Source: Bryum argenteum
Taxonomy: Eukaryota; Streptophyta; Bryopsida; Bryales; Bryaceae
NCBI GenBank assembly: GCA_037043015.1
Contig: CM073329.1
Location: 10,928,648-10,992,647 of the forward strand
Direction of reading: 5' to 3'
DNA: 64,000 bases
Under the pieces are notes generated by a model that saw nothing but the letters and a program-made list of their open reading frames with translations, searched no databases and had not been told where the DNA came from. Shown here one piece after another: positions 2,119-51,439 of the stretch (position 1 is the first letter of the stretch; every line of letters begins with the position of its first letter). Both the position numbers and the translations under genes were made by a program.

Positions 2119-5100
2119 CTCCTGTAGAGCCCTCTCTTCACGAGCCTAGTTCTGGTGCGTTTAGGACCCGGAGTCTTACCTCAACCTCAATTTAGTGAGC
2201 CAGAATTTTTCCTCTTCGCACGATCTGAATTGGTGACTTGATCTGATTATTATCTGGTCCGTGCCCTTTGATGTTCTAGTTTACTGTGGTTGAAGTTCAA
2301 TAGACTTTCATCTGATCGTGCGGTCAATGGCTACTGTTGCTCTTTTGGACGGGTGCTGATCAGATTAAGCCCGTGGATCGCCTCGAGCTTCGAAATTATG
2401 TACGGTATCTCTTTAGTTATATGGTTGAGTCAGTAGATTGGCTGTGCTTGGCTTCAGGTATTCATACTAAGCTGTCTTCATAGTAGTGTGCTGACTTTGT
2501 AGCAATTAAGAGTCTCTTCTTGAATGTCGAAGCGATAGGTGTTCTTTGAGTTTCACGAAGTTAGGTCCAGCAGATCGCTTGCTTGTCACGGCAGCAGTAG
2601 AACGGTTAGAACATGTTTGTTTAGGTGCGGCGAGTCCACTTGTTTCGATCGTGAGGTTGATTGAAGCATTATTGGAAACGCTATTAGGTCGTAGGATTCT
2701 GTTTGTGACTAGACACTGACGTAATCATTTGGTGGCTTGCTACTGAAGTTTCACCGGTAAAGAGTTTGGCACTCGGACTCCAGAATGCACTTAATTGAGT
2801 TAAGGTGCAGGAATTGTGATTGCCTGTCACAAGGTTTCTTTGAAGTGTACAGCATTTTTCAGCAAAGCTGTTTACTAGCTCCCTTTAGTCGTCTTCCCTC
2901 ATGGACATAATATTTTCTACATTTACTTATCATGTTGACCTGGCTGGATTCAAGGGAAGAAAATAATATTTTATTTGTCAGAGGACGGGATGTAGTTGTT
3001 GTTGTAGACCACCTAGACTTATTAGTTCGAAACTGTCTGTGCTAGTTTCATATGTGTTTTACTTCTTCTCCCGCGTATCACAAGATTTAAACCCTCTATT
3101 GTACAAAGGTCAGAGATCCCAGCTTTTGGTCTTCTATGACTGAATATGAAAGAAATGACAATATAATCTGAAGAATTAACTCTTTATACCTCTGATTCTT
3201 TGCTTCTTTCTTTGAACTTTGCTTGTTGTCTGCTGCTATCGAAGCCTCACTTTTGCCTTCGATTTGGCTACTTATGTATGTCCTCTCTTCCGATCTTTTC
3301 TCAAATAGCCGCAGTGATCACTGCAATTCTTGCTCCTAAGTTTGGTTTCTTATCTTTTTAAGGTCATTTGGAGTTACCTAGAACTGATATTGTTTTGAAC
3401 GTGCTCGTAGGTAATTGTGGGGTAAGGGGCACAAGTGCGGCTGTGACCCCCACAGTTATCGTTATTGGCGCTGGCTTTGGAGGCCTTGCTGCTGCGCGGT
3501 ATCTCCACAACTCAAATCTGGAGGTACGAGAATATATTGGAGAGATCTCGGTTGGCTGATTTTTCAGTCTTTTAGAGACTTTCGTCAGTTTCCAGCAGCT
3601 GTGAACTGTGTACACCGAGTCGTAGATTACATGTTATACTTTGTCTCGAGAGCTCTTACGTGTCTGAAAGGGTAATTCGATGTTATAGTTGAAGAATGCG
3701 TCTTGTGTTGATGACTATGAGGATGTTGGCCTTATTGAGTTACGGTCTTATTATATGTAACGTGGTCGTGCTGGATTTTGCAGGTTGTGCTGTTGGAGTC
3801 GCGTGATCGGATTGGGGGCCGTGTCTACACTGACTATTCTTTTGGCTTTCCGGTTGACATGGGGGCTTCATGGTGAGTTGTCATTCTCATTTTTTTAATA
3901 AATCGTCTAGTAGGTTCTCGTAACAAGCAGTATCTATCGGTCTTGATAAGTCTTGAATTCTGTACCTTCTGCATTGCGATTCTCCAGAGCTCTTTTCAAT
4001 GGCCTCATTTATCGTGATACAGGCTGCATGGTGTTTGCAAAGACAACCCTCTAGCACCCGTCATTGGCAAGTTGAAGTTGCCTCTATACCGAACATGTGG
4101 TGACAACTCAGTTCTGTACGATCATGACCTGGAGAGGTATGCTGCATTGACTTCTTTCTCAATATGCGATATCCATTAGACATATTGTTCAGTTTGGACT
4201 GTGTGTATCGTTTTTTACAACTGATTTGTGTAAATTCATACGTGCAAGAGTCTACCATGCTGCATTTATTACGGAGTGACCATCCTGCTGGAGTCTTAGG
4301 GCAAGGAGAGAAAAATATTTTAGTCTTCAATTGTTACAATTGAGTCTCCTAGCTTGTGTGTGGGTCAGTGCGTTGTATTGGGACAGTTGCAGCCTCTAAG
4401 TTTCTTTGGCCAGTTTGAATCGCATGATCCTCAATTTTTGAATTCTTCGTTCTGTTTAGTTATGCGCTATTTGACATGGATGGCCACCAAGTTCCACAAA
4501 GTCTGGTTAGTAAGGTCGGCAAGATATTTGAGGATATACTGGAAGAGGTGAGTCTTTTCTTCTTGATGGTTGTCTTTTCTTGATTACTTCATTTCGAAAA
4601 TTTGGATTCTATCATCTGCGGGGTACCATCTTGTCTCACGACTAATTAATTTCCAGGCATGGCATCTTTCGGTAGTTGATTTTATTATTTGCCGTTTTGG
4701 TTATGTTATTCAGACCAAGAAGATAAGAGATGAGTTCGCAGATGATATGTCGGTATCCGAGGCCTTCTCATTAGTATTGGACAGACGGCCAGAATTAAGG
4801 TTAGTCATTTTTTTACACCTAAATGTTCTTAAGGGCATCTCTTTCTCAGTAGGTCAAGAGTTGGTACTTCCTTTTCTAATAGATTTCGTTCAGGTGCTCC
4901 TCACGTTTGCACGAGTCATTTAGACCTGCATGTACGATTGTAACTGAAATGTTTTGACCATTGCAGACAAGAGGGAATGGCATACAAAGTTCTACAATGG
5001 TACATATGTCGAATGGAAGGATGGTTTGCTGCGGACGCTGATAACATTTCCGTTCAAAGTTGGGACGAGGTATACCCTTCGTTTCAATGCTGTATAATGA

Positions 5101-9744: not shown

Positions 9745-10012
9745 TCAACCCCTAACTCTCCTTGTTGCAAAACGGTTCAAGTCACAAAATTTGACCTTGC
9801 TTTAGATTAAGCTCAAAAAATCTCAATCTAAGCATTATTTAAGAGATTCAACCGTAAGATCTCAAAGTTCATTTGACCTTCTTCTCACATACCACATTTG
9901 AACCGTTCATTCTTCCTCATTTGTGAGATTATAATGGTCAAAGTTGGCTGATTTTTTCTCGTGCGGGAACCTCCAAAACCCGTTTCCGGTTTTAAGGAGA
10001 GTTACGGGTTAA
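9745..10012. mobile_element. TTAA-flanked MITE, subfamily T1 (268 bp)
   Basis: The left end reads TCAACCCCTAACTCTCCTTG and the right end AAGGAGAGTTACGGGTTAA, giving inverted termini of about 17 bp and a worn TTAA on the left. The interior is nearly the same as the copy at 20956-21222, sharing AACCGTAAGATCTCAAAGTT and ATAATGGTCAAAGTTGGCTG. It has no coding capacity and is a non-autonomous element. The TTAA target and the CCCCTAA tip point to a piggyBac-like family. Confidence 0.75.
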
Positions 10013-14926: not shown

Positions 14927-15512
14927 TTAACCCCTAACTTTCCTCGGTGTTTTTTGGGAGCTTGAAACCTCAAAACTGCAATTATTTACTCCTATGTACT
15001 CCCGAGGGTGTGAACAAATTTTGTTTCTTTTTTAAAACTTCCAACCGTAAGATCTTCTGCCTAAGACTATTTTTAGTTGTTGTTTAAAAATTTGACCGTT
15101 GGATGTTCACCGTTTGAGAGATCATAACATCCAAAGTTTGTCTCCCAAGTTTTTTTGGGCATTGCAAAGATTGGTTTTGAAGATTTTGGAGGTTGCCCTT
15201 CAAAAATTGGTAAGCTTTTTGACTTGAATCACTTTTAAATTTGAGTAGTGATTTAGTAATAAACATACTTCCAAAAAGAAAATTCAAAAAAATTACTTTT
15301 GTAAGCTGCCCTTTTTCGACTTGAAACCTAAAATTTTCTGCATGAAGGTTTTAAAATTGGAATTTGACTTTGCAAATTTTACCACATACACTTTGCAGTA
15401 TAAGGAGCACCCAATAAAAATCTTAGGCAAAAATATTACTCTTAACTACTTCATCTGGGCTGCCTGAAAGTGCAATATCCCGTTTCGGGCTTCAAGGAAA
15501 GTTAGGGGTTGA
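14927..15512. mobile_element. TTAA-flanked element, subfamily T2 (586 bp)
   Basis: The left end is TTAACCCCTAACTTTCCTCG and the right end AAGGAAAGTTAGGGGTTGA; about 17 bp pair as inverted termini. The interior, read on the minus strand, matches the longer element at 21219-22147, for example TAATATTTTTGCCT followed by a GTGTATGTGG stretch. No transposase frame is present, so it depends on proteins from elsewhere. Confidence 0.7.
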
Positions 15513-17696: not shown

Positions 17697-18811
17697 CTTG
17701 CACAAAAAATCCATTAAATAATACATTTGATTTCACATAATTGGTTTGCAATGCTTCACCAAGCCCATGTTTGGAAACCCAAAAACAAAAGCTGCCTCCA
17801 CTAAAAGTCTAAAATGCATACCATTAATCTTTAATTCATTGTAAGCATATGCAAATTTTATCACACAAAATAGACTAGATTTGGGACCGACTCAAGTAAT
17901 TTTATCAAAAAAGAACTTCAAATGAAGAAGTTATGGTTCCCCAAAGATTTTACCCTTCATCCAAAATGTCGTTTTCATCCAAACTACATAACCAACGTTA
18001 TCTCCCCCATCTTGTTTGCGAGCCTCCTTCCAGCATTGAGGCGAGCTCCCGCGTTCAATGACATGCGCAATCAGCTGGAAGTCTCTTCTCAAAGCCCTTA
18101 GCTTACTAACACTATTCAACAACTTAACAATAGATACAATAAATAAGGTACTAATCTATGTATGAATATTAGCCTCGTAAGTTCAAATCTGGTACATCTT
18201 TGACATGCCTATAAGCAGAGATTTGTTGTCTTAACTATTAGATCCTGGAGGCTTGATGATCCTCTGGTAATCACAAGGGCTGCTGCTCTTATTGGTTGGG
18301 TTGACAAATTTGGAGGCCTTTTCATCTTTGAGGTCCATGTCCAAACTTGCATGTTGCTTGTAATTTTGCCATTGAATCAACCTTCACAAGAGAGACAAAC
18401 ATGAACTTGAAACCTAGAGCACCTTAAAACACTGGTGACCTGGTCAACAAACTCGCCTTCGTTCAAGAGAAAACTAACATACATTTTCGACACAACCCCG
18501 CGTGTAGCATACATCTTCAACAAAACCTCACCAGAACAGACAACTCCCACGATGCATACTCTATAGCAGTTATAATCCAATTCCATTAAGACCATGCTTG
18601 CTCGAGTATGTCTGGCTCCTCCTCAAAATCTACAGCGGCAAGTGTCGACGCACTCGTAGCTCTCTTTAAGATCTTGATGTTTTGAAGTTAGGCCGAGACT
18701 TTTCGATGCTGAGTCTAATTCTGGTCGCCTCATAGCCTGAGATACCTGCTTATAAGTCAGATAACACATTAGCATTTCACAAGCTTGCTAAACAAAGAAA
18801 GTAAACAACTC

Positions 18812-18812
18812 G

Positions 18813-18863
<51 letters not shown>
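18812..18863. repeat. Microsatellite (AT)n(AG)n
   Basis: A run of AT dinucleotides passes straight into a run of AG dinucleotides. It lies in unit A at the place where the other units carry a short TATATAT stretch, so it has expanded locally. Confidence 0.9.
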
Positions 18864-18867
<4 letters not shown>

Positions 18868-18991
18868 CTTGAGACAAATTTGTACTGTGTGCCACTGTAG
18901 AGGTTACCTTCAACAAATTCGTTCGCCTCTTCCAATCTTCAATACTGAGTGGCTATGAATTCAGTCAATTAATTAACCGGCAAGCCATTGT

Positions 18992-19163
18992 CACTAGTAG
19001 AAAATGGCACTAAAAGTGACGGTCATAATGTTTTGACCGTAATGACACATAGTGCGTATTTTAATTGTGCTTTTAATGACATCATGATAAATTATTATAT
19101 TTGTCACTTTTCTTTAAATTTTTTATCAATCTATTAGGATGCGGTATGCTTATTACAAAAAAA

Positions 19164-19224
<61 letters not shown>

Positions 19225-19335
19225 AGAAAAATGACAAATATCATAATTTCCTTTGATGTTATCAAAAGCACAATTAAAACTGACACTTTGTCAAGTCATT
19301 ACGTTTGTCACTTTTAGTGCCATTTTCTACTAGAG
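18992..19335. mobile_element. CACTA-type MITE inside unit A
   Basis: It starts CACTAGTAGAAAATGGCACT; the other end, CATTTTCTACTAGAG, is a slightly worn inverted copy. The termini pair over about 35 bp. A run of about 24 A and then (AT)n at about 19157-19222 has expanded in the middle. It occupies the same position as the MITE in unit D (46826-47116), so it was inserted before those units duplicated. Confidence 0.85.
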
Positions 19336-20032
19336 CGTCACCCTACGCAAGGAAAATTAGCGCAGACATCATGAATTGAGATTTTACATTAAAAAGTATG
19401 TTTCAGATTCCGAATAATATGAAAGTTCTACCACATTTTATAACTACTGCTACATGCAAGCATAGCAAATGATGGCTCCAATCTTAATCATGTTTGGATT
19501 GTTAAGAATCCAATGAATGCCAACACAAAACGAAAACAACAAAATTCATAAACAACAATGATATGTGTCTCCTCAAAGAAGAGTCGCCGATGTATCATCC
19601 AAGGATGATAGTAAGAATTGGACTGCCTACTCAAGGAACTCTTTTTATCAGGTGAATTTTCAAGCAAGGAGAATTCCGGAAATAAATCGGAGAGAATGAA
19701 GTCGGATTTAATCTCATATGATTTGTACATTCCCGCAATCTTCAACTCGATATGGAGCTCACACAACGTAAGTGTGGTAATCTGGGATAGATGTCAGACT
19801 CTAGCCATTTGGAGTTTCGTAGGCCACTCGCGCACCTTGTGCCATGGAGTATTTCTCGTGCCGCCTCCAAAACCTCAATTTGAGCTTCAAAGGTCCGGAG
19901 ATGCGCGAGGGTTGCACTATCACCTGCACAAAGCGACTCGTTAAAAACACTCTTCATCATCATAAGAGAGGCATGGGAGGCAAAACTTACTTAAGGAACC
20001 TCGTGAAGTTTTATTCCCAAGAGCAATAGTAT

Positions 20033-20509
20033 TCAAGCAATCAAGGACTTGGGAGTCGGAGCCTCCACGGGCTTTACGCTGCACCACACATTCTTTTCCG
20101 CGGACACCATCTCCTGAGATAATAACACCGCAAGTTGTATGCGCGCAAAAGGCCGTATCGCCAAGAATACCAAGGTGCAGACCAAGGCTAGGAACATGAT
20201 GGCCAACCTTGCTATAGTTAGAAAGAGCAACATGGCGAGAGGCAATGACGCGATGGCAAGAGGCAGAGAGCGCGACGGGAAGGCGAGATGGAACGACCGC
20301 GACGCGAAGGCGAGAGGCAACGAGCGCGACGCGAAGGCAAGAGGCAACGAGCGCGACGCGAATCCGAGAGACGGCGAGCGCGGTAGCAAGAGCGATGATG
20401 AGAGGTAGTAATGGCCAAAGGCGATGTACGCGAAGGCAAGTAGCAAGCAGCTTCGCGATAGAGATTTACCGCCTTCGGAGCTAGCTAACGAGATTGTAAT
20501 TTTAGCCAT
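20033..20509 (-). CDS. Hypothetical repeat-rich protein of unit A
   Basis: This is a 158-codon frame starting MAKITISLASSEGGKS. It passes through four to five copies of a nine-residue repeat, LPLAFASRS, then a hydrophobic stretch (MLLFLTIARLAIMFLALVC) and a block with VWCSVKPVEAPTPKSLIA. Unit D keeps the start (MAKIIVSLASFEGGKS). The array is also open on the other strand, where it reads ARGNERDAK, so the open frame alone does not prove coding. The ATG was chosen because it is conserved between units A and D. No known domain is recognised, and transcription is unknown. Confidence 0.3.
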   Translation of the reverse strand: MAKITISLASSEGGKSLSRSCLLLAFAYIAFGHYYLSSSLLLPRSPSLGFASRSLPLAFASRSLPLAFASRSFHLAFPSRSLPLAIASLPLAMLLFLTIARLAIMFLALVCTLVFLAIRPFARIQLAVLLSQEMVSAEKNVWCSVKPVEAPTPKSLIA

Positions 20510-20955
20510 CTGGGTTGGTTGCTTTCGTTTTGGACTTCCGTTTTTAGATTTAGTTTTATGATTTCTGGTCTTCAATTCGCAATTTAATTTCTATGACAAA
20601 ATCAGTCTACCTGCTAAACAAATTCTCAGTGTTTTCACTTTTGTAGACAATCTCTCTTTTTCATGTCAACTCTCTTTTTCATGTCAACTCTCTTTTTCAG
20701 GCCAATTTTCTAGCGCGGAGGATTTCGGAGATGAATCTGAGAAGATGAAGTCGGAGTCGATCTCGTAAGGTTTGTACACTCTTGCGGTCTTCAAGTTGAT
20801 CACGAGCTAATCTATTGCTTGCAATGTAAGTTTGGTAATCTTTGATGCAAGTGGGTATGTTGCTCGTCAAAGTCTTGTAGCTAGGACACTCGTGAGCTCT
20901 GTGCCTTAGAGTACTCCTCGTGTCGCCTCCAACCCTTCTATTCGAGCTTCAAGGT

Positions 20956-21222
20956 TTAACCCCTAACTCTCCTTGTTGCAAAACGGTCTAAGTCACAAAA
21001 TGTGACCTTCCTTTGGATTAAGCTCAAACAATCTCAATCCAAGCATTCTTTAAAAGATTCAACCGTAAGATCTCAAAGTTCACTTGACATTCTTCTCACA
21101 TACCAAATTTGAACCGTTCATTATTCCTCATTTGTAAGATTATAATGGTCAAAGTTGGCTGATTTTTTCTCCTGCGGGAACCTCCGAACCCGATTCGGGT
21201 TTTAAGGAGAGTTAGGGGTTAA
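20956..21222. mobile_element. TTAA-flanked MITE, subfamily T1, well preserved
   Basis: It starts TTAACCCCTAACTCTCCTTG and ends AAGGAGAGTTAGGGGTTAA, with perfect 17-bp inverted termini and TTAA on each side. It has inserted into the TTAA at the edge of the next element (21219-22147) and shares that tetranucleotide. Length and interior match the copy at 9745-10012. Confidence 0.85.
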
Positions 21223-22147
21223 CCACTAAACTACCAAGGCCTCCTTTTAGGAGATTTGTGATTTCGGGCAACCTAAGTAAAGATGTTAAAAGTAATATTT
21301 TTGCCTGAGATTTTTACTGGATGTTCTCTATACTACAAGGTGTATGTGGGAAAATTTGAAAAGTCAAACTCCACCTTTGGAGTTTTAAACGCAAATTTTA
21401 GTTTTCAGCCTAGGGGCGGGCAAAAAAAACTTTTTATTTTTACCTTTTTTTTAAAAAAAAATTGAAATCTTTTATTGATTGATTTTGTACATAGTTTTCC
21501 CAGTGACCCAAGTTGAAAATTTTACTAATCCTACAAGGGCAGTCTTCAAAAATTACAAGAGCTAGATTCAAAATTTTCTATGATATTACAATTTTTTCTT
21601 TCAAAATTTGCCAGAATTTGAGATTTTGGAATTTTTTGAATGTATGTTTTCTTGAAATTCACAAACTCAAGAAGGTATGTACTCGCCATTCGTTTTTCCA
21701 CTAAACCATATACAATGAACTTGGTGCATGTTTTACCAAATCCTTGATTTCTACCTTCTTCTAATAAATAAATTGCATGAAGGTTTAAAAAGCAGAGTGA
21801 GTGTCTAAAGTTTTGCATGGACATGCTCAACTTAGTTATATACATGGGAAAAATATGAGCTAGATGTTTAAGGTAATAAGCATCACGTTTTCCTTTGCAC
21901 AAAGTGGACTATGTTTGCTGAAGAAAAGATTGCATTTACTTTGAATGTTATGATCTTACAAATGGCAAAGATCCAACGGTTGAAATTTCAGCCACTATCT
22001 CTAATGGTAGTTCTCTTTAAGATCATACGGTTGAAAGTTTCAAAAAAGTTTAAAAAATATTCTCATACTCCAAAGTTTACTAGGTTGTATGAAATTGCAA
22101 TTTTGGAGTTTGGAGCTCACAAAACACCATGGTCGTTTAGGGGTTAA
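21219..22147. mobile_element. TTAA-flanked element, subfamily T2 (929 bp)
   Basis: Left end TTAACCACTAAACTACCAAG, right end CCATGGTCGTTTAGGGGTTAA (last 20 paired), so about 20 bp form inverted termini. The flanks can be compared with unit C, which has the same host sequence without any insertion: the joined flanks here read AAGGTTTAAAAAATGCG against AAGGTTTGAAAAATGCG in unit C. That shows TTAA was the target and was duplicated. The interior has no intact transposase frame. Confidence 0.8.
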
Positions 22148-22929
22148 AAAATGCGCGAGGGTTGTTTTATAACCTGCACAAAGTCACTCATTAGAGCCAC
22201 TCTTCAACACAATAAAAGACCATGTGAGACAACAAAGCAAAACTTACGCAAGGAGACTGAAGAAGCTTTATGCCGAAGAGCAAGAATATCCATGCAAGTA
22301 AGGCCTTGAGAGTTGAAGCCTCCATGGGCTTTACTCCGCACCACACGGTCCTCTCCATTGACACCATCTCCTCAAACGGAAACTCCAAATTGCAGCAGAT
22401 CACGAGGGTAACAAACATGACTGCCAACCACAATATGGTTACAAAGAGTAGCATGGTTTAGAAGCGCGATAGCAAGAAGAAAGGAGCGCACGATGGCTAG
22501 AGGGTAGGAGCGCGCGATGAGGAGAGGAATGAGCGCGCCATGGCGAGAGGGCAGCATGATGATGGGGAGAGGGCAGGAGCGTGTAATGGCAAGAGAGGAG
22601 CAGTGCGCGATGGCAAGAGGGCAACAACGAGAGGGCAGTGGTACGCGATGGCGAGGGGGCAGCAGCGCGCGATGGGAAGAGGATACTAGTACGCGGTTGC
22701 GAGAGGGCATAAGCACGCGATGGCGATAGTGCTGCAACGTGTGATGGCGAGGGAGCAGCAGCGCGCGAAGGCGAGAGGGCTACAGGACAATAGCGAGAGG
22801 TAATGAGAGGAAGATGATGGCATCTTCATGAAACAAATTTTTCACTACTTTGGAGCCAGCCAATAGGACTATAACTTCAAAGTTAGGTATGTAGACTATG
22901 GTCTCACTGCATCCGAGTTAGTGGCTTTA

Positions 22930-23303
22930 GAGCATGCCCAGCCCTGCGCTCTAGGCCGGACCATAGGGCTGCGCTAAAAGCTTGCAGGCCCTGCTTGAGC
23001 GGGCGTCGATACCTCACTCCACGCTGGAAGGTAAGGCACATAAAAAGGCTGCTTGCAAATCACACTTTCTAACAAGTAATTATAATAGAGATTATTTTCT
23101 GCCAATAAATTTAATGCCACATGTCACTCTCGCAGTAGTGAAAGGGGGTGTTAAAATGTGAGTGAAGACACGGGATAAAATGGTGTGCTAAAATTAGGAG
23201 ACGTCAATCCTCTTTGACCAGGTTACAGGGATAGTGTGGGCTAGGGTCCTTTCACACGCCAAACAAGGTTCCACTCTCCGTTCAGTGCGGGCGGGGCATG
23301 CTC
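22930..23303. mobile_element. PIF/Harbinger-type MITE with TTA target duplication
   Basis: It starts GAGCATGCCCAGCCCTGCG and ends GTGCGGGCGGGGCATGCTC. TTA lies directly on both sides, the 3-bp duplication expected of PIF/Harbinger elements. A 381-bp relative sits at the equivalent place in unit C (43991-44371). Confidence 0.85.
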
Positions 23304-23444
23304 TTAGTTCTGGGCTTCAGTTTGATGGGTTTTTGTACTTATATCATCATAATAGAGTATAAGATAGTAAACATGTCATTTTTCCTAATTGGCTTCAAAA
23401 AATACCCATAAAAATAGAGTTATGAGCCCCTCTTAGGATAATTG

Positions 23445-25107: not shown

Positions 25108-25595
25108 TTAACCCCTAAATGTCCCAAACTATTTTGAGTCAATAAATGCATTCAAATAAAAAATGTCATATATGAAAATGAAGGTAACTCAACACAACAA
25201 TTTTATAGTAGAGTTATTGTAGATGATGTTAACCAAATTTTGAGGCATGAAGCCTCATACATTTGAAGTTGTTGAGATTCATCTTAAGATCACACTTGTC
25301 CAAAAAATATTCATGAAAATTTAGTTTTGTGTCCACATAATTCGCTTGTAATGGTAAAACATGCCTCATGTTGTAAAATCCAAAACCAAAAGTTGCCTTC
25401 ACTAAAATGCATGACAATAATTCATACTTCATAATGTAGTTTGCAATTTTCACCACACAAACTAGACTTGATTTGGGACCTCATCCAAGTGATTGCGTCA
25501 AAAACATAGTTTCGATGAAGAAGTTACATGGCTCTTCAAAGTTTCAACCATACAGAACTACGACATTGGGGACATTGGGGACGTTTAGGAGTTAA
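25108..25595. mobile_element. TTAA-flanked element, subfamily T5 (488 bp)
   Basis: Left end TTAACCCCTAAATGTCCCAA, right end TTGGGGACGTTTAGGAGTTAA (tips pair over about 18 bp). The interior resembles 33000-33252 and parts of 17715-17960 and 53500-53760, for example a GACTTGATTTGGGACC-like stretch. Non-coding. Confidence 0.7.
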
Positions 25596-43876: not shown

Positions 43877-45560
43877 GCCTCATCACATCCAGGATTCAGA
43901 AAAAAAAAAGTGAAAACTCAGAGCATTCGCTTGGTAGGTAGACTGATTTTGCAGAACAGAAACCACCTAAAAACTGAAGCCCAGAACTACGAGCATGCCC
44001 AGCCTGCACTGAACGGAGAGTGAGAGTGGAGCCTTGTTTTGCGTGTGAGGGACCCCAGCCCACACATTATCTTGTAACCTGGTCAAGGGGTTTGAGGTCT
44101 CCTAAATTGTAGCACACCATTTTATCCCAGTGTATTCACTCACATTTTAACATCCCCATTTACCACTGCGAGAGTGACATGTGGCAGCAAATTTTTTGGC
44201 AGAAAATAATCTCTACTATAATCACTTGTTAGAAAGTGTGATTGGTGAGCGGCCATTTTATGTGGCTTGCTTCCTGGCGTGGGGTGGGGTATTGATGCCC
44301 GCTCAAGCAGCCCCTGCAAGCTTGCAATGCAGCCCTATGGTCCAGCCTGGAGCGCAGGGCTTGGCATGCTCTTAAGCCACTAACCTGGATGCGATGAGAC
44401 CATAGACCACTAACCTAACTATGAAGTTATTGTCCCGTTGGCTGGCTCCACAGTCGTAAAAAAGATATGTTTCATCAAGATGCCATCATCTTCCCATCAT
44501 CACCTCTCGCTATTGTGTTGTTGCCCCCTCGCCATCGCGCGCTGCTGCACTGTCGCCATTGCGTGCTAGTGCCTTCTCGCGATCGCGCGCTCCTGCCATC
44601 TTGCCATCGGGCTACTGCCCTCTTGCCATCATTACGTTGCCCTCTCGCCATCCTCTTCCTGCCCTCTCGCCATCGCGCACTCCTTTCCTCTAGCCATCGC
44701 GCACATCTGCCATCTCGCCAAAGCGCTTTGTTGCCCTCTCGCCATCGTGCACTGCTCCCTTCTCCCCATCACACGCTCATGCCTCCTCGCCATCATCCTG
44801 CTGCCCTCTCGCCATCGCGCACTGCATTCTTCTTGTCATCGCGCACCTCCTACCTTGTGGCCATTGTGCGATGTTGCCCTCTTGCTATCGTGCGTTGCTT
44901 TCATCTAGCCATCGCGCACTGTTGGCTGCTAGCCATCGCGCTTGTGCACTCTCGCCATCGAGCGCTCCTGCCCTCTCGCCATCGCGCTTCTAAACCATAC
45001 TGCTCTTTGTAACCATATCGTAGTTGGTAGTCATGTTCGTTACAATGTTCATCTGCTGCAATTTGGAGTTTCTGTTTGAGGAGATGGTGTCGACGGAGAT
45101 TACCGTGTGGCACGGCGTAAAGCCCATCGAGGCTTCGACTCTCGAGGCCTTACTTGTATAAATACTCTTGCTCTTCGTCATAAAGCTTCTCCATACTCCT
45201 CGCGTAAGTTTTGCTTTCTTGTCTTACATGGTCTTTTATTGTGTTGAAGAGTGGCTCTAATGAGTGACTTTGTGTAGGTTATAAACAACCCTCACGCATT
45301 TTTCAAACCTTAAAGCTCGAATTGAAGGGTTGGAGGCGACACGAGGAGTACTCTAAGGCACAAGGCTCACGAGTGTCCTACTAGACTTCAATTGGCAACA
45401 AACTCATTTCCATCAAAGATTACCAAACTTACATTGCAAGCAATAGATTACCTCAGCTCGTATTCAACTTGAAGACCGCGGGAGTGTACGAATCTTATGA
45501 GATCGACTCCGACTTCATCCTCTCAGATCTATCTCGAAAATCCTTTGGGCTAGAAAGTTG
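43877..45560 (+). pseudogene. Gene-like repeat unit C (inverted partner of unit B)
   Basis: The unit leader (CATCACATCCAGGATTCAG, then AGGTAGACTGATTTTGCAG) is cut by the Harbinger MITE at 43991-44371. A 24-bp tandem array follows (about 44505-44985, unit like GCCCTCTCGCCATCGCGCGC), then the GGAGATGGTGTCGACGGAGA block, a GTAAGTTTTGC site near 45206, and the helix module after GTAG near 45280. The module carries the unoccupied TCAA site at 45303-45306 that holds the TTAA elements in unit B. Frames are not continuous. The product is not recognised. Confidence 0.5.
43991..44371. mobile_element. PIF/Harbinger-type MITE in unit C
   Basis: Starts GAGCATGCCCAGCCTGCA and ends GCGCAGGGCTTGGCATGCTC, TTA on the right and a worn TAC on the left. 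It is the inverted counterpart of 22930-23303, at the same site of the duplicated unit, so one insertion was copied by duplication. Confidence 0.8.
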
Positions 45561-46176
45561 GCCTGAAAAAAAGAGATTGCCTAAAAAAGTGAAAACACAA
45601 AGCATTTGTTTAGTAGGTAGACTAATTTTGTCATAGAAATTAAGTTGCGAAATGAAGACAAGAAACCATAAAACTAAATCTAGAAACTAAACTCCAAAAC
45701 AAAAGCAACTAACCCGGATGGCTAAAATTATAGTCTCGTTGGCTAGCTTCGAAGGCGGGAAATCGCTATTGCGGTGCTCCTTACCTCTCGCCTTCGTGTC
45801 CATTGCCTCTAGCCATCACTACCTCTCGCCATCGCTCTTGCTATCGCGCTCGTTGCGTCTCCCCTTCGCGTCGTGTTCGCTACCTCTCGCCATGCTCCTC
45901 TTTCTAACCATAGCGTGATTGGCCATCATGTTTTTAATCTTGGTCTGCTTCACCTTGGTATTCTTGGCAATAAGACCTTTAGCGCGCATGCAACTTGCGG
46001 TTGCAATGTTTTTATTTTAAGAGATGGTGTCCATGGAGAGGACCGTGTGGTGTGGCATAAAGTCCGTGGAGGCTTCGACTCCCAAGTCCTTGATTGCGTG
46101 GATACTATTGCTCTTAGGAATAAAACTTCTCTAGACTCCTCAAGTAAGTTTTGCTTTCCATACCTCTCTTATTGTG

Positions 46177-46572
46177 ATGAAGAGTATTTCTAAGGAGTTG
46201 CTTTGTGCAAGTGATAGTGCAACCCTCGCGCATCTCCGGACCCTTGAAGCTCAAATTGAGGGGTTGGAGGCGGCAAGAGGAATACTCCGTAGCAAAGGGT
46301 TCGCGAGTGTTCTACAAGACTTCAACCGGCCAACCGCCCAGAGACTCAACACCATCCCAGATTACCACACCTACGTTGCAAGGAACTCTATATCACTTGA
46401 GCTCTACATCGAGTTGAAGATTGCGGGAGTATACAAATCGTATGAGATAAAATCTGACTTCATCATCTCCGATTCACCTCCGGAATTCTCCCCACCTGAA
46501 TATTCACCTCATAAAAAGAGTTCTCCTCAGTTGGCACTCCAATTCTTACTATCATCCTTAGATAATCCCTAG
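46177..46572 (+). CDS. Hypothetical 131-residue frame in unit D (helix module plus KIAG module)
   Basis: A continuous frame from ATG 46177 reads MKSISKELLCASDSATL, then AHLRTLEAQIEGLEAARGIL, an amphipathic helix that could form a coiled coil, then PDYHTYVARNSISLELYI and ELKIAGVYKSYEIKSDFIIS, ending with a Ser/Pro-rich tail. The same two modules can be read in units A, E and F with different amounts of damage. The usual acceptor AG is lost here, so translation from this ATG needs no splice. No family is recognised and no expression is known. Confidence 0.3.
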   Translation: MKSISKELLCASDSATLAHLRTLEAQIEGLEAARGILRSKGFASVLQDFNRPTAQRLNTIPDYHTYVARNSISLELYIELKIAGVYKSYEIKSDFIISDSPPEFSPPEYSPHKKSSPQLALQFLLSSLDNP

Positions 46573-46825
46573 GTGCCTCTTCTTCGAGGAGACACACATG
46601 TCATTGTTGTTTGTGAATTTTGTTGTTTCTGTTTTGCGTTGGCATTCATCAGATTCTTAACAAACCAAACATGATTAAGACTGGAGCCATCATTTGCTTT
46701 GCTTGCATGTAGCAGTAGTTATAAAATGTGGCAAAACTTTCATACTATTGGGAATCTAAACATACTTTCTAATGTAAAATCTCAATTCATGATGCCTGCG
46801 CTAATTTCTTTTGCGGTGAGTGACG

Positions 46826-47116
46826 CACTAGTAGAAAATTTCACTAAAAGTGACAAACATAATGACTTGACAAAGTGCTAGTTTTAATTGTGTTTTTAAT
46901 AACATCAAAAGAAATATGATATTTGTCACTTCTTCTTAATTTTTTTTTTGGGTAGTAATTAGCATACCACACCCTAATAGATTGGTAAAAAAATTAAGGA
47001 AGAGTGACAAATATAATAATTTATTATGATGTTATTGGAAGCATAATTTAATGCACTATGTGTCATTACGATGAAGTCATTATGGCCGTCACTTTAAGTG
47101 CCATTTTCTACTAGTG
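46826..47116. mobile_element. CACTA-type MITE in unit D
   Basis: Starts CACTAGTAGAAAATTTCACT and ends AGTGCCATTTTCTACTAGTG. The same position is empty in unit F (GGGTGACGATGGCTTGCC at about 50998-51015), which shows insertion between GTGACG and ATGGCTTG. The 3-bp flanks no longer match exactly. Confidence 0.85.
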
Positions 47117-47425
47117 TCCATGGCTTGCTAGTTAATTGATGGAAAAAATTCGTAGCCACTCAGTATCGAAGATTGGAAGAGGCGGACGAATTTGTTGAAG
47201 GCAATCTCAAGTGTCGCACACATAGCAGATCTGTCTTAAGAGTCATTCTATATATATCAAGTCGTTCACTCTCTTTGTTCAGCAAGCTTGTGAAATGCTA
47301 ATGTGTCACCATGTTCGTCTCTGTTGTGAAGGTTAATTGAACCGCAAGATCACAAGCAGCATGAAAGCCTGGACATGGACGTCAGAAATTCAAAGTTGAA
47401 AAGGCCTCCAAATTTGTCAACCCTC

Positions 47426-48835
47426 TCTAGTTGCCGCGCTCGTTGCTGCCTCTCTCGTTGCCGCGCTCGTTGCTGCCTCTCTCGTTGCCGCGCTCGTTGC
47501 TGCCTCTCTTGCCGCCGCGCTCGTTGCTACCTCTCTCGTTGCCGCGCTCGTTGTTGCCTCTCTTGCCGCCGCGCTCGTTGTTGCCTCTCTTGTCGCCGCG
47601 CTCGTTGATGCCTCTCTCGCCGCCACGCTCTTTACTGCCTCTCTTGCTGCTGCGCTCGTTGCTGCCTCTCCCGCTGCCGCGCTCGTTGCTGCCTCTCGCC
47701 ATGCTCCTCTTTTTAACCATAGCTTGGCTGGCCATCATGTTCCCTTGTCTGCTGCAGTTTGGTGCTCTTGGCGATACGACATTTTGCGCACATGCAACCT
47801 GCAGTTGCTATATTCCTATTCCAGGAGATGGTGTCCACGGAGAGGACGGTGTGGTGCGGGGTAAGGCCCGTGGAGGCTTCGACTCCCGAATCCTTGATTG
47901 CTTGGATTCTATTGCTTTTCGGAATAAAACTCCTCCAAGCCCCTCGAGTAAGTTTTGCCTCCGTTTTGCCTCCGTTTTGCTCCCATGCCTCTCCCCATCA
48001 TGTTTGTCAGCCTCCTTCCAAGATTGACGTAAGCTCTTGCATTCAATGAAATGCGCCATCAGCTGGAAGTCTCTTCTTAGAGCCCTTAGCTTACTGATAC
48101 TAGTCAACAACTCCTCCATTCAATGAAATGTGCCATCACCTGGAAGTCTCTTCTCAGAGCCCTTAGCTTTCTCTTCTTAGAGCCCTTAGCTTACTGACAC
48201 TAGTCAACAACTCCTGCATTCAATGAAATGCGCCATCAGCTAAAAGTCCCTTCTTAGTGCCCTTAGCTTTCTCTTTTAAAGCCCTTAGCTTACTGACACT
48301 AGTCAACAGCTAAACAATAGATATAATAAATGAGGTTCTAACCTGTGTATGAATGTTAGCCTCGAAAGTTCAAATCTAGTACATCTTCGACATGCCTATA
48401 AGCAGAGATTTGTCTTAACTATTAGAACCTGGAGGCCTCATGATCCTCTTGTATTCACAAGGGTTGATGCTCTTACGTGTAGGGCTGACAAATTTAGAGG
48501 CGTTTTCAACTTTGAACTTCTGAGGTCCATGTCTAGTCTTGCATGATGCTTGTAATCTTGTTATACAACCTTCACAACAGAGACGAGCATGAAGAGTGCT
48601 CTAACAAATCGCTTTGTGTAGGTGATAGTGCAACCCTCTCGCATTTCCGGACCCTTGAAGCTCGAATTGAGGGGTTGGAGGCGGCACGAGGAACACTCCA
48701 TGGCACGGGGTCCACGAGTGCCAAGTGGCCTACGAGACTCCAATTGCCGAAAGACTCACCTCCATCAAAGATTACCACACTTACGTTGCAAGGAATGGAT
48801 CACCGCAGCTCCTTATCGGGTCTCATCATATCCAG
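47426..48835 (+). pseudogene. Gene-like repeat unit E, rearranged
   Basis: Unit E lacks the leader and starts in a 27-bp array (47430-47700, unit like CGCGCTCGTTGCTGCCTCTC). The conserved GGAGATGGTGTCCACGGAGA block and the GTAAGTTTTGCC site (about 47949) follow. An inverted fragment of the unit's own 3' part (about 47985-48590) fills the place of the intron. The helix module then resumes after GTAG near 48620 (VGDSATLSHFRT and IEGLEAARGTL). This copy cannot be a normal gene, but it shows the module borders. Confidence 0.5.
47985..48590 (-). repeat. Inverted 3' fragment inside unit E, with a threefold internal duplication
   Basis: On the minus strand this carries the unit's 3' modules (SKLRALRRDFQLMAHFIE near 48100 and LDMDLRSSKLKTPLNLS near 48500) in opposite orientation to the rest of unit E. 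Within it, a segment of about 110 bp with GAGCCCTTAGCTTACTGA and CAATGAAATG is present three times (48030-48310). Confidence 0.6.
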
Positions 48836-49089
48836 GTTTTAGAAGAAAAAAAAAAAAAATGAAAACACATATCATTCATTTAGTAGGTAGATTGATTTTG
48901 TCGTAGAAATTAAGCTGCAAAATGAAGACCACAAACCGTAAAACTAAATCCAAAAATTGTAGTCGAAAATGAAAGCAACTAAACCGAATGGCTAAATTAG
49001 AGTCCCGTTGGCGGGCTTCGAAGGCAGGAAATCGCTATGACGGTGCTCCTTGCCTTTCACCTTCATGTCCATTGCCTCTGGCCATCGTT

Positions 49090-50090
49090 GCCTCTCGCCA
49101 CCGCTCTCCTACCGCGCTAACCCGCTCGCTGCCTCTCGCGTTTGCGTCGCGCTCATTGCCTCCCGCGTTTGCGTCGCGCTCGTTGCCTCTCGCATTCGTG
49201 TCGGGCTCGATGCCTCTCGCGTTCGCGTTGCGCTAGCTGCCTCTAGCGTTTGCGTCCTGCTGCCTCTCGCCATGCTCTTTTTTCTAACCAAGGCTCCGAA
49301 CACGGGAAATTGTTATTGTTGTGGTGCATGTCTTTGCCTTCGCGTCCATCGCCTCTAGCCATCGCTTTTGCGTCGCGCTCGTTGCCTCTCAATTTTGTGA
49401 TGCGCTCGTTGCCTCTCGCCTTCGCGTTGCGCTCGCCGCCTCTCGCCATGCTCCCCTTTCTAACCAAGGCTCCGAAGGCGGGAAATTGCTATCGCGGTGT
49501 TGCTTGTATTTCGCCTTCTCGTCCATCGCCTATGTTCATCGCTGCCTTTGGCCATCGCTCTCGCTACCGTACTCGCTGCCTGGTACGTTCAGGTTGCGCT
49601 TGCTGCCTCTTGTGTTCGCGTCACGGGAAATTGTTATTGCGATGGTGCTTGCCTTTTGCCTTCGCGTCCATCCCCTCTCGCTATAGTTGCCTCTCGCCAT
49701 GGCTCTCGCTACCGCGCTGCCTCTCGCACTCGCTGCCTCTCGCACTCGCTGCCTCTTGTATTTGCGTCGCACTCGTTGCCTCTCGTGTTTGGGTTGCGCT
49801 TGTTGCCTCGTGCCATGCTCCTCTTTTTAACCAAGGCCCCAAAGGCGGGAAATTGTTATTATTGTGGTGCTTGTCTTTTGCCTTCGCGTCCATCGCCTCT
49901 GGTCATCATTGCTTCTTGCGTTTGTGTCGCGCTTGCTGCCTCTCGTGTTCACGTCGCACTCACTGCCTCTTGCCTTTGCGTCGTGCTCGCTGCCTTTCAT
50001 GTTCGCGTCGCGCTCGTTGCCTCTCATGTTTGCGTTCCACTCGTTGCCTCTCGCGTTAGTGTCGCGCTCGCTGCCTCTTGCCATGCTTCT
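49090..50090. repeat. Large in-frame 27-bp tandem array of unit F
   Basis: About one kilobase of degenerate 27-bp units of the form GCTCGTTGCCTCTCGCGTTT plus GCGTCGC. The array is broken by repeated copies of the segment ACCAAGGC(T/C)CCGAAGGCGGGAAATTG, so it was also amplified in larger blocks of about 180-200 bp. Read forward it gives LPLAFASRS-like repeats; read backward ARGNERDAK-like repeats. Both strands stay open over long distances. Confidence 0.8.
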
Positions 50091-51135
50091 CTTTCTAACC
50101 ATAGCTTGGCTCGCCATCATGCCGTAACCCTCGTCTGGTGCAGCTTGGTATACTTGGCTATACAACCTTTTGCGGGCATGCAACCTACGATTGTGGTTGT
50201 TTCCATTTCAAGAGATGGTGTCCACGGAGACAACCGTGTGGTGCAGCGTAAAGCCCGTGAAAGCTTCGACTCCCGAGTCGTTCATTGCTTCGATCCTATT
50301 GCTCTTTCGAATAAAACTTCTCCAGACTCCTTAAGTAAGTTTTGTCTCCCCTACCTCTCTTATTGTGATGAAGAGTGGCTCTAACGAGTCACTTTGTGCA
50401 GGTGATAGTGCAACCCTCGCGCATCTCTGGACCTTTGAAGTTTAAATTGAGGGGTTGGAGGCAGCATGAGAAATACTTCATAGCACAAGGTCCGCAAGTG
50501 TCCTACGAGACTCCAACCAGCCAGAGACTGACCTCCATCCCAGATTACCACACTTACGTTGAAAGAATGGATCACATGAGTTCCATATCAAGTTGAAGAT
50601 TGCGGGAGTGTACGAATCATATGAGATCGACTCCAACTTCATCCTCTCCAAATTACCTCCGGAATTCTCTCTGCCTGAAAGTTCACTTGATAAAGAGAGT
50701 TCCCGTAGGTAGGCAGTCCGATTCTTACTATCATCCCTCGATGATCCCTGGGCGCTTCTCCTTTGAGGAGACACATGTCATTGTTGTTTGTGAATTTTGA
50801 TGTGTTCTTTTTGTGTTGGCATTCATTAGATTCCTATCGAATCAAACATAATTAAGACTGGTTTCATCATTTGTTTTGCTTGCATGTAGGAGTAGTTATA
50901 AAATTTAGCGAAACTTTCATAATATTTAGAATCTCAAACATACTTTGTAATGTAAAATCTCAGTTCATGATTCGTGCGCTAATTTCTCTTGCGCTGGGTG
51001 ACGATGGCTTGCCAGTTAATTAATTGACAGAATTCATAACCACTCAGTATCAAAGATTGCAAGAGGCGAACGAATTTGTTGAAGGCAATCTGGACTATGG
51101 CACACATTACCGACATGTCTCAAGGGTCATTCTAT

Positions 51136-51439
51136 CACTAGTAGGAAATGGCATTAAAAGTGACAAACGTAATGACTTGATTGTAATGATACAAAGTGAC
51201 TGTTTTACTTATGCTTCTAATAATATCAAAAAAATTATGATATTTGTGACTTTTTCTTAGTTTTTTTGTTGTTGTAATAAGCATTCCACACCCTAATAGA
51301 TTAGTAAAAAAAATCAAGAAAAAGTGACAAATATAATAATTCATTGCGATGTAATTAGAAGCACAATTAAAATATGCACTATGTGTCATTACGGTCAAGT
51401 CAATACAACCGTCACTTTTAGTGTCATTTTCTACTAGTT
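51136..51439. mobile_element. CACTA-type MITE in unit F with TAT target duplication
   Basis: Starts CACTAGTAGGAAATGGCATT and ends AGTGTCATTTTCTACTAGTT, with TAT immediately on both sides. It is related to the copies at 18992 and 46826 but occupies a different site in the unit, so it is an independent insertion. Confidence 0.85.

Follow-up and report, generated by a model that had tools for sequence, protein, structure and literature searches.

Short elements of probable piggyBac origin and their transposase-bearing relatives in the moss Bryum argenteum

The transposon piggyBac, a widely used TTAA-specific tool, is chiefly known from animals. In a stretch of 64,000 nucleotides from the genome of Bryum argenteum, the whole of which we call the window, two short elements with inverted termini stand back to back between TTAA tetranucleotides. 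Their presence raises the question of whether a land plant harbours genuine piggyBac elements and, if this is the case, which enzyme moves them. The window carries plant genes, among them mitochondrial carrier and sugar transporter frames (named by eye). The 114.6-kb contig C12 of the same genome carries plastid genes in the order rbcL, trnR(CCG), accD, which is a bryophyte order, and the best PDB matches of the plastid PsaB (8htu, 6l35/7xqp and 7ksq/7kux) are what we take to be Physcomitrium photosystem I entries; both features make a moss, rather than a flowering plant, the likely host.

Two adjoining elements and their target site

Element A, delimited by its genome matches and inverted ends, spans 267 bp on the plus strand (20956-21222) and has TTAA at each end. 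Its left inverted end (20956-20974, plus strand, including the TTAA at 20956-20959) and right inverted end (21204-21222, minus strand, including the TTAA at 21219-21222) match perfectly over 19 of 19 positions, TTAACCCCTAACTCTCCTT. Element B, 929 bp in length, follows immediately on the plus strand (21219-22147). The TTAA at 21219-21222 is common to both elements, as seen in the sequence and in an alignment of the joined flanks, and the same alignment identifies the TTAA closing B at the right (22144-22147). The left tip of B is TTAACCACTAAACTACCAAGG and the right tip, written as its reverse complement, is TTAACCCCTAAACGACCATGG. An 'A' is found in the left tip of the window copy. When 20 other B copies (L049-L068) were fetched, 18 had CCCC at the corresponding side and the remaining two, L063 and L066, departed from CCCC in other ways; this 'A' looks private to the copy in the window. 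Tip-like motifs, with one mismatch allowed, occur 16 times in the window, compared with 0.82 expected in shuffles. Three more convergent tip pairs of the piggyBac type were noticed at 9745-10012 (268 bp), 14927-15512 (586 bp) and 25108-25595 (488 bp). Back-to-back elements with a single common TTAA were also noticed elsewhere, namely two A elements in L097 and a B tip beside an A tip at G000:C2:15103182-15103211, so that the arrangement of neighbours with one TTAA is a recurrent one.

Both elements belong to large families. Exact 17-bp A tips were found 906 times genome-wide (455+451) against none (0+0) for a reversed control pattern, and exact 17-bp B tips 279 times (141+138) against one (0+1). 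The best 40 of 2,002 candidate matches of A, the window copy included, were scored at 97-100% identity. In a less biased set of 17 copies, picked by exact tips alone, identity to the window copy is 90-97%; three more stretches obtained along with this set comprise another family with the same tip (L096), the two A elements of L097, and a locus in which the likeness to A is confined to the right 250 bp and the tips (L098). For B, 39 further matches (the best 39 of 6,246 candidates) were scored at 89-92% identity. Element A, being short (267 bp), non-coding, bounded by inverted ends and present in high copy number (906 exact tips), is a MITE, whereas B is long for a MITE at 929 bp and is better called a non-autonomous element. 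Because the nearest relatives are 99-100% identical for A and 92% for B, B would be the older insertion, with A subsequently entering the TTAA that bounds B on the left. Movement of A- and B-type elements would be recent or continuing.

The target was tabulated from the fetched copies. Similarity to A yielded 30 copies (window copy included), of which 28 are flanked by TTAA left and right, the two exceptions having TGAA at the left in one and TTGT at the right in the other. With 20 further A-type copies the count becomes 48 of 50, which is no independent test of the target, since the pattern used to choose these copies contains TTAA. Among the B copies (the window copy and 20 fetched ones), TTAA flanks both sides in 20 of 21, one flank each of L052 and L063 having been read directly from the sequence where the tip script missed the tip. 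The exception, L053 (G000:C4:25756862-25758792), has CTAG at both sides, a symmetric non-TTAA target. Genome-wide, A tips follow a 4-mer not beginning with T in 33 places, versus 906 after TTAA, the pattern behind the former count being two bases longer than that behind the latter; 21 of these 33 4-mers are CTAA (12), CTAG (5) or ATAA (4).

The flanks of the A-B pair, joined by one TTAA, can be aligned to a paralogous host stretch without insert on the minus strand of the window (45054-45556), with 444/508 identities (87% over 508 bp). In this stretch TTGA (45303-45306) stands where the filled site has TTAA-A-TTAA-B-TTAA. A second clean pair, L017 (filled) and L021 (empty), agrees at 91% over 198 bp and leaves exactly one TTAA. 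None of the four further window paralogs spanning the site (72-74% identity) has an insert, and none has TTAA there. In the paralogs of L024, CTAA takes the place of the TTAA of the filled copy, and the paralogous empty sites of L015 and L016 are also other than TTAA; a mutation of the host copy to TTAA before the insertion would explain these cases. The window regions 18764-23323 and 43971-51438 comprise several repeats of host sequence that have diverged to ~67-82% identity and mostly lie on opposite strands; they are probably a duplicated gene cluster, one unit of which provides the empty site. The earlier note on this DNA had described two back-to-back elements with inverted termini and TTAA flanks, had pointed to a near-empty counterpart in the window, and had proposed that targets be tabulated at filled and empty sites. 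The two elements and the near-empty site, with TTGA replacing the whole A-B insert, are as it described, and the tabulation supports a 4-bp TTAA duplication, with TTAA on both sides of nearly all filled copies and a single TTAA or TTGA in the clean empty ones.

Transposase-bearing relatives in the same genome

A profile search of the genome with PF13843 (DDE_Tnp_1_7) gave 116 scored matches, all above the cut-off, out of 776 candidates, and five translated frames matched the profile with E values of 1e-77 to 3e-83. Locus L069 contains an open 910-aa frame (PF13843, E 1e-78), the protein of which also matches the solved piggyBat 9c0f (E 2.6e-26) and Trichoplusia ni piggyBac 6x67 (E 6.2e-26) proteins. 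The motifs around the catalytic aspartates line up between L069 and 6x67 (ltideqll/ltidemmi, tcdnwfts/tmdnyfts and gvdtldq/gvdvsdq), the aspartates of 6x67 being presumably residues 268/346/447. By eye, the frames of L069, L039 and L046 end in a cysteine-rich C-terminal tail, for which the domain search found no model above the cut-off. Searching the genome with the L069 protein yielded 74 match rows, including 22 long ones that begin no more than three residues from the N-terminus; six of the 22, L069 included, are free of stops to within seven residues of the L069 C-terminus.

Transposase-bearing elements with both tips were delimited at C2:9668679-9675139 (6,461 bp, with interrupted frames), C8:14124498-14130255 (5,758 bp, with an open 910-aa frame), C2:9290327-9296971 (6,645 bp), C9:4434014-4439718 (5,705 bp) and C2:31450160-31455864 (5,705 bp). 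Similar tips were paired to fix these limits, which meant excluding one extra tip on the 5' side and one on the 3' side of L069 as dissimilar. The 3' tip was seen alone in L071 and L072. At L039, L040 and L043 the transposase is enclosed by tips of another class, TTAACCCTTAAACGCCC and TTAACCCCAAATTCC, at a distance of 2.2-2.6 kb. No tip pair was found within 1.5 kb on either side, a flank shorter than the element, at seven of the ten transposase loci fetched at the outset (L041, L042 and L044-L048).

The two 5,705-bp elements on C9 and C2 were compared over their two ends, which flank a middle of 2.5 kb. Their 5' sides align over 1,441 bp with zero differences; at their 3' sides 1,687 bp align with zero mismatches, interrupted by seven gap columns in four openings. 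Each alignment ends precisely at TTAA, which lends independent support to the limits. The frames of the two elements, 831 and 786 aa long, match the L069 protein to residues 838 and 794 of 902, and the cysteine-rich tail is encoded downstream of the listed frames, in the C2 copy in another reading frame than the preceding residues. The two copies appear young, yet a complete enzyme may be lacking from them, because their frames end before the cysteine-rich tail. The family as a whole has probably moved recently in this land plant, since many transposase frames are open and some copies are near-identical at their ends.

The short elements can be linked to the transposase-bearing ones by their sequences. 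The right part of B (21766-22147, plus strand) is akin to the 3' ends of L070 and L069 up to the tip (each E 9e-38), and its right ~400 bp, the final base included, are 70-74% identical to the 3' ends of L070, L069 and L099/L102. With the B copy L004 as query, the corresponding E values are 2e-45 for L070, 3e-44 for L069 and 6e-67 for both L099 and L102. In the middle of A, the portion at 21058-21157 (plus strand) resembles the 3' non-coding end of L069 (73.8% over 103 columns, E 5e-9), a weak match that recurs with L099/L102 (E 6e-10). None of the transposase-bearing elements fetched has exactly the tip of A or B, the closest tips being TTAACCCCTAACTGCCCAGG (L069/L074) and TTAACCCCTAAAGGCCCAGG (L100 and L101). 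By eye, no exact 17-bp A or B tip bounds a PF13843 transposase among the first 100 places per tip, which span C1 to the start of C4 for B and C1 to C2:15.9 Mb for A; an autonomous element bounded by exactly these tips was accordingly rejected for the places compared. One B copy lies directly outside the transposase-bearing element of L073. As no exact tip match was found and the homology of B amounts to 70-74%, the true mobilising partner of A and B may be another copy, or one now extinct.

An additional conserved reading frame ahead of the transposase

Besides the transposase, the larger elements carry a conserved segment of ~95 aa upstream of it (L069:6766-7890, minus strand; L101:2107-2391; L070:976-1260; L044:3876-4160, minus strand). 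Its identity to the L101 copy is 55-68% in L069, L070, L044 and L042, and 34% in L073. The segment lies 26-114 bp 5' of the transposase on the same strand in all 22 of the long N-terminal matches mentioned above, and 26-225 bp upstream on the same strand in 14 of 20 shorter N-terminal pieces (one of 21, starting at residue 23, was omitted). In each of the six pairs examined, substitutions fall most often at the third position of the codon. The dN/dS value is 0.11-0.22 in five of ten pairs and is only a rough guide, because dS is near saturation (1.8-3.0); among the remaining pairs, dS was not computable in four and zero in one. Stops are present in some copies of the segment (L042 and several of the listed rows). 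A GT-AG intron of 82-94 bp is predicted after the transposase start in L069, L070, L044 and L042, separating a short predicted first exon from the residues (M/L)EWDGIP, and the start itself probably lies inside the end of the upstream frame, in another reading frame. Among the 150 matches of the segment listed, 58 have the same score and identity, a comparison of scores rather than of sequences. Searches of Pfam and NCBIfam with the segment gave nothing up to E 10, and its single match in the PDB has an E value of 0.59.

The 44.1-Mb contig C1 carries none of the 58 identically scoring copies of the upstream frame, with 9.9 expected by length, and five of the 116 PF13843 matches, with 19.8 expected. 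C1 is thus poor in the piggyBac family, and it might be a sex chromosome.

It is attractive to speculate that the moss lineage is a two-gene transposon, a proposal for and against which we see the balance as even. The upstream protein, of which the ~95-residue segment has no known relatives in the libraries searched, would be under purifying selection, and the transposase would start within the end of its frame, in another frame and just before the small intron. Such a transposon would have moved recently, as the 58 identically scoring copies suggest, and would avoid the largest chromosome, possibly a sex chromosome. The piggyBac superfamily is usually described as single-gene. If the second gene is genuine, it would represent an accessory protein in this superfamily.

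Assignment of the short elements and the place of piggyBac in land plants

We consider it very probable that A and B are non-autonomous piggyBac members in a moss, on which the PF13843 transposase of their relatives most likely acts in trans. Relatives of ~5.7-6.5 kb in the same genome encode a DDD (PF13843) transposase. This enzyme would recognise A and B by their CCCCTAA-tipped inverted ends and subterminal sequence and cut at the flanking TTAA. The element would then be re-inserted at another TTAA, which is duplicated. On terminal likeness, we infer that A and B would be moved by transposases of the L069 type and not by the enzyme of some closer relative.

Other sources of such elements need to be weighed against this assignment. 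PIF/Harbinger (Tourist-like) MITEs are common plant elements. If A and B were of this kind, the duplication would be of 3 bp (TTA/TAA) and the fourth base of TTAA would belong to the element; TTAA does contain TTA, and one filled/empty TTAA pair cannot tell 3 from 4 bp. The CTAG at both sides of the B copy L053 is nevertheless a symmetric 4-bp change, almost every copy has A as its fourth base, and the relatives with the 3' end of B encode PF13843, which leaves a PIF/Harbinger origin highly improbable. TTAA targets are also known from Kolobok and Sola3, and an origin in one of these superfamilies deserves equally little credence: the target is all that they have in common with the moss elements, whereas the right 400 bp of B match the 3' ends of PF13843 elements up to the tip, and the transposases align with the solved piggyBac and piggyBat proteins. 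The tip CCCCTAAA is like the plant telomere repeat, CCCTAAA, and the tips could in principle be telomere-like sequence captured at breaks rather than transposon ends. The copies fetched have defined bodies of 267 bp or ~930 bp, are complete at either end and lie in unrelated flanking sequence, and just one TTAA is present at an empty site; telomere capture, the least credible of these readings, is excluded by the common bodies and the empty sites.

A narrower alternative accepts the piggyBac origin and concerns the mobilising lineage, which could be other than the L069/L070/C9 type, for instance the L039 type with its TTAACCCTTAAACGCCC tips 2.2-2.6 kb apart. The genome contains several classes of tips alongside several lineages of transposase, and cross-mobilisation of MITEs was suggested for corals in the portion of PMC2872659 available. 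Among the transposase loci compared, however, it is the L069/L070/C9-type elements that have the terminal sequence of B, and the match of B to L043, a locus of the other type (E 2e-9), falls at 3794-4098, outside the tip pair at 1278 and 3499. We regard mobilisation by another lineage as rather unlikely and retain the L069 type as the candidate partner. The earlier note had left the family as piggyBac-like or convergent and had suggested a search for full-length relatives with a DDE_Tnp_1_7 transposase. Such relatives are present, as 116 PF13843 matches and tip-bounded elements. The family is true piggyBac, because these relatives exist, B has their 3' ends, and the filled/empty pairs fit TTAA.

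Like T. ni piggyBac (6x67) and piggyBat (9c0f), the moss elements have a TTAA target, short inverted ends starting with C, and a DDD transposase with aligned catalytic motifs and a cysteine-rich C-terminal tail. Unlike these two, they reside in a land plant, and the L069 type is 5.7-6.6 kb long. In this type ~400 residues precede the PF13843 domain, a small intron is predicted, and another conserved frame lies upstream. The L039 type, 2.2-2.6 kb long and with a short N-terminus, is nearer to the usual piggyBac form. A hallmark in print is inverted ends of 12-19 bp with the tip CC[C/T]T (PMC2872659, in the part accessible). The inverted ends of A are 19 bp long and tipped by CCCCTAA, so that CCCT is found one base inward and not at the first base. 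Similarly to the coral CMITE families described in the accessible text of PMC2872659, A and B are short, TTAA-flanked, non-autonomous elements with ends common to piggyBac-like elements. The coral families, from an unrelated host, also occur in tandem arrays, according to the same text; here neighbours have one common TTAA (the window and L097).

The superfamily itself is known; what is new is its host and its scale here, and perhaps the second gene. The earlier note had held piggyBac elements to be reported rarely or not at all from flowering plants, which is too strong: the sections available of a review count PiggyBac as one of seven MITE superfamilies of angiosperms (PMC10004981). Those angiosperm MITEs resemble A and B as piggyBac-type MITEs of a plant, and are given there, as far as these sections go, as a class name, whereas here transposase-bearing relatives with open frames are found in the same genome. 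PBLEs in plants are mentioned in the accessible part of PMC8086355, and a fern repeat table includes PiggyBac with 1,230 entries (PMC6890710, table as available). A word search did not find piggyBac in a review of land-plant transposable elements (PMC9033089), and found it in a moss genome paper (PMC10619864) as 'piggybacking' alone; no title on piggyBac in mosses was among the matches listed from the open-licence literature. As to the proposal that the family is widespread in this plant lineage, the high copy number in one genome bears it out for that genome, and support does not extend beyond it.

With its many open transposase frames, its copies with near-identical ends and its non-autonomous copies in the hundreds, this land plant would offer a natural plant system for studying piggyBac control. 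The moss set may also provide a source of plant-adapted enzymes, and it calls for caution in the use of piggyBac vectors in such hosts.
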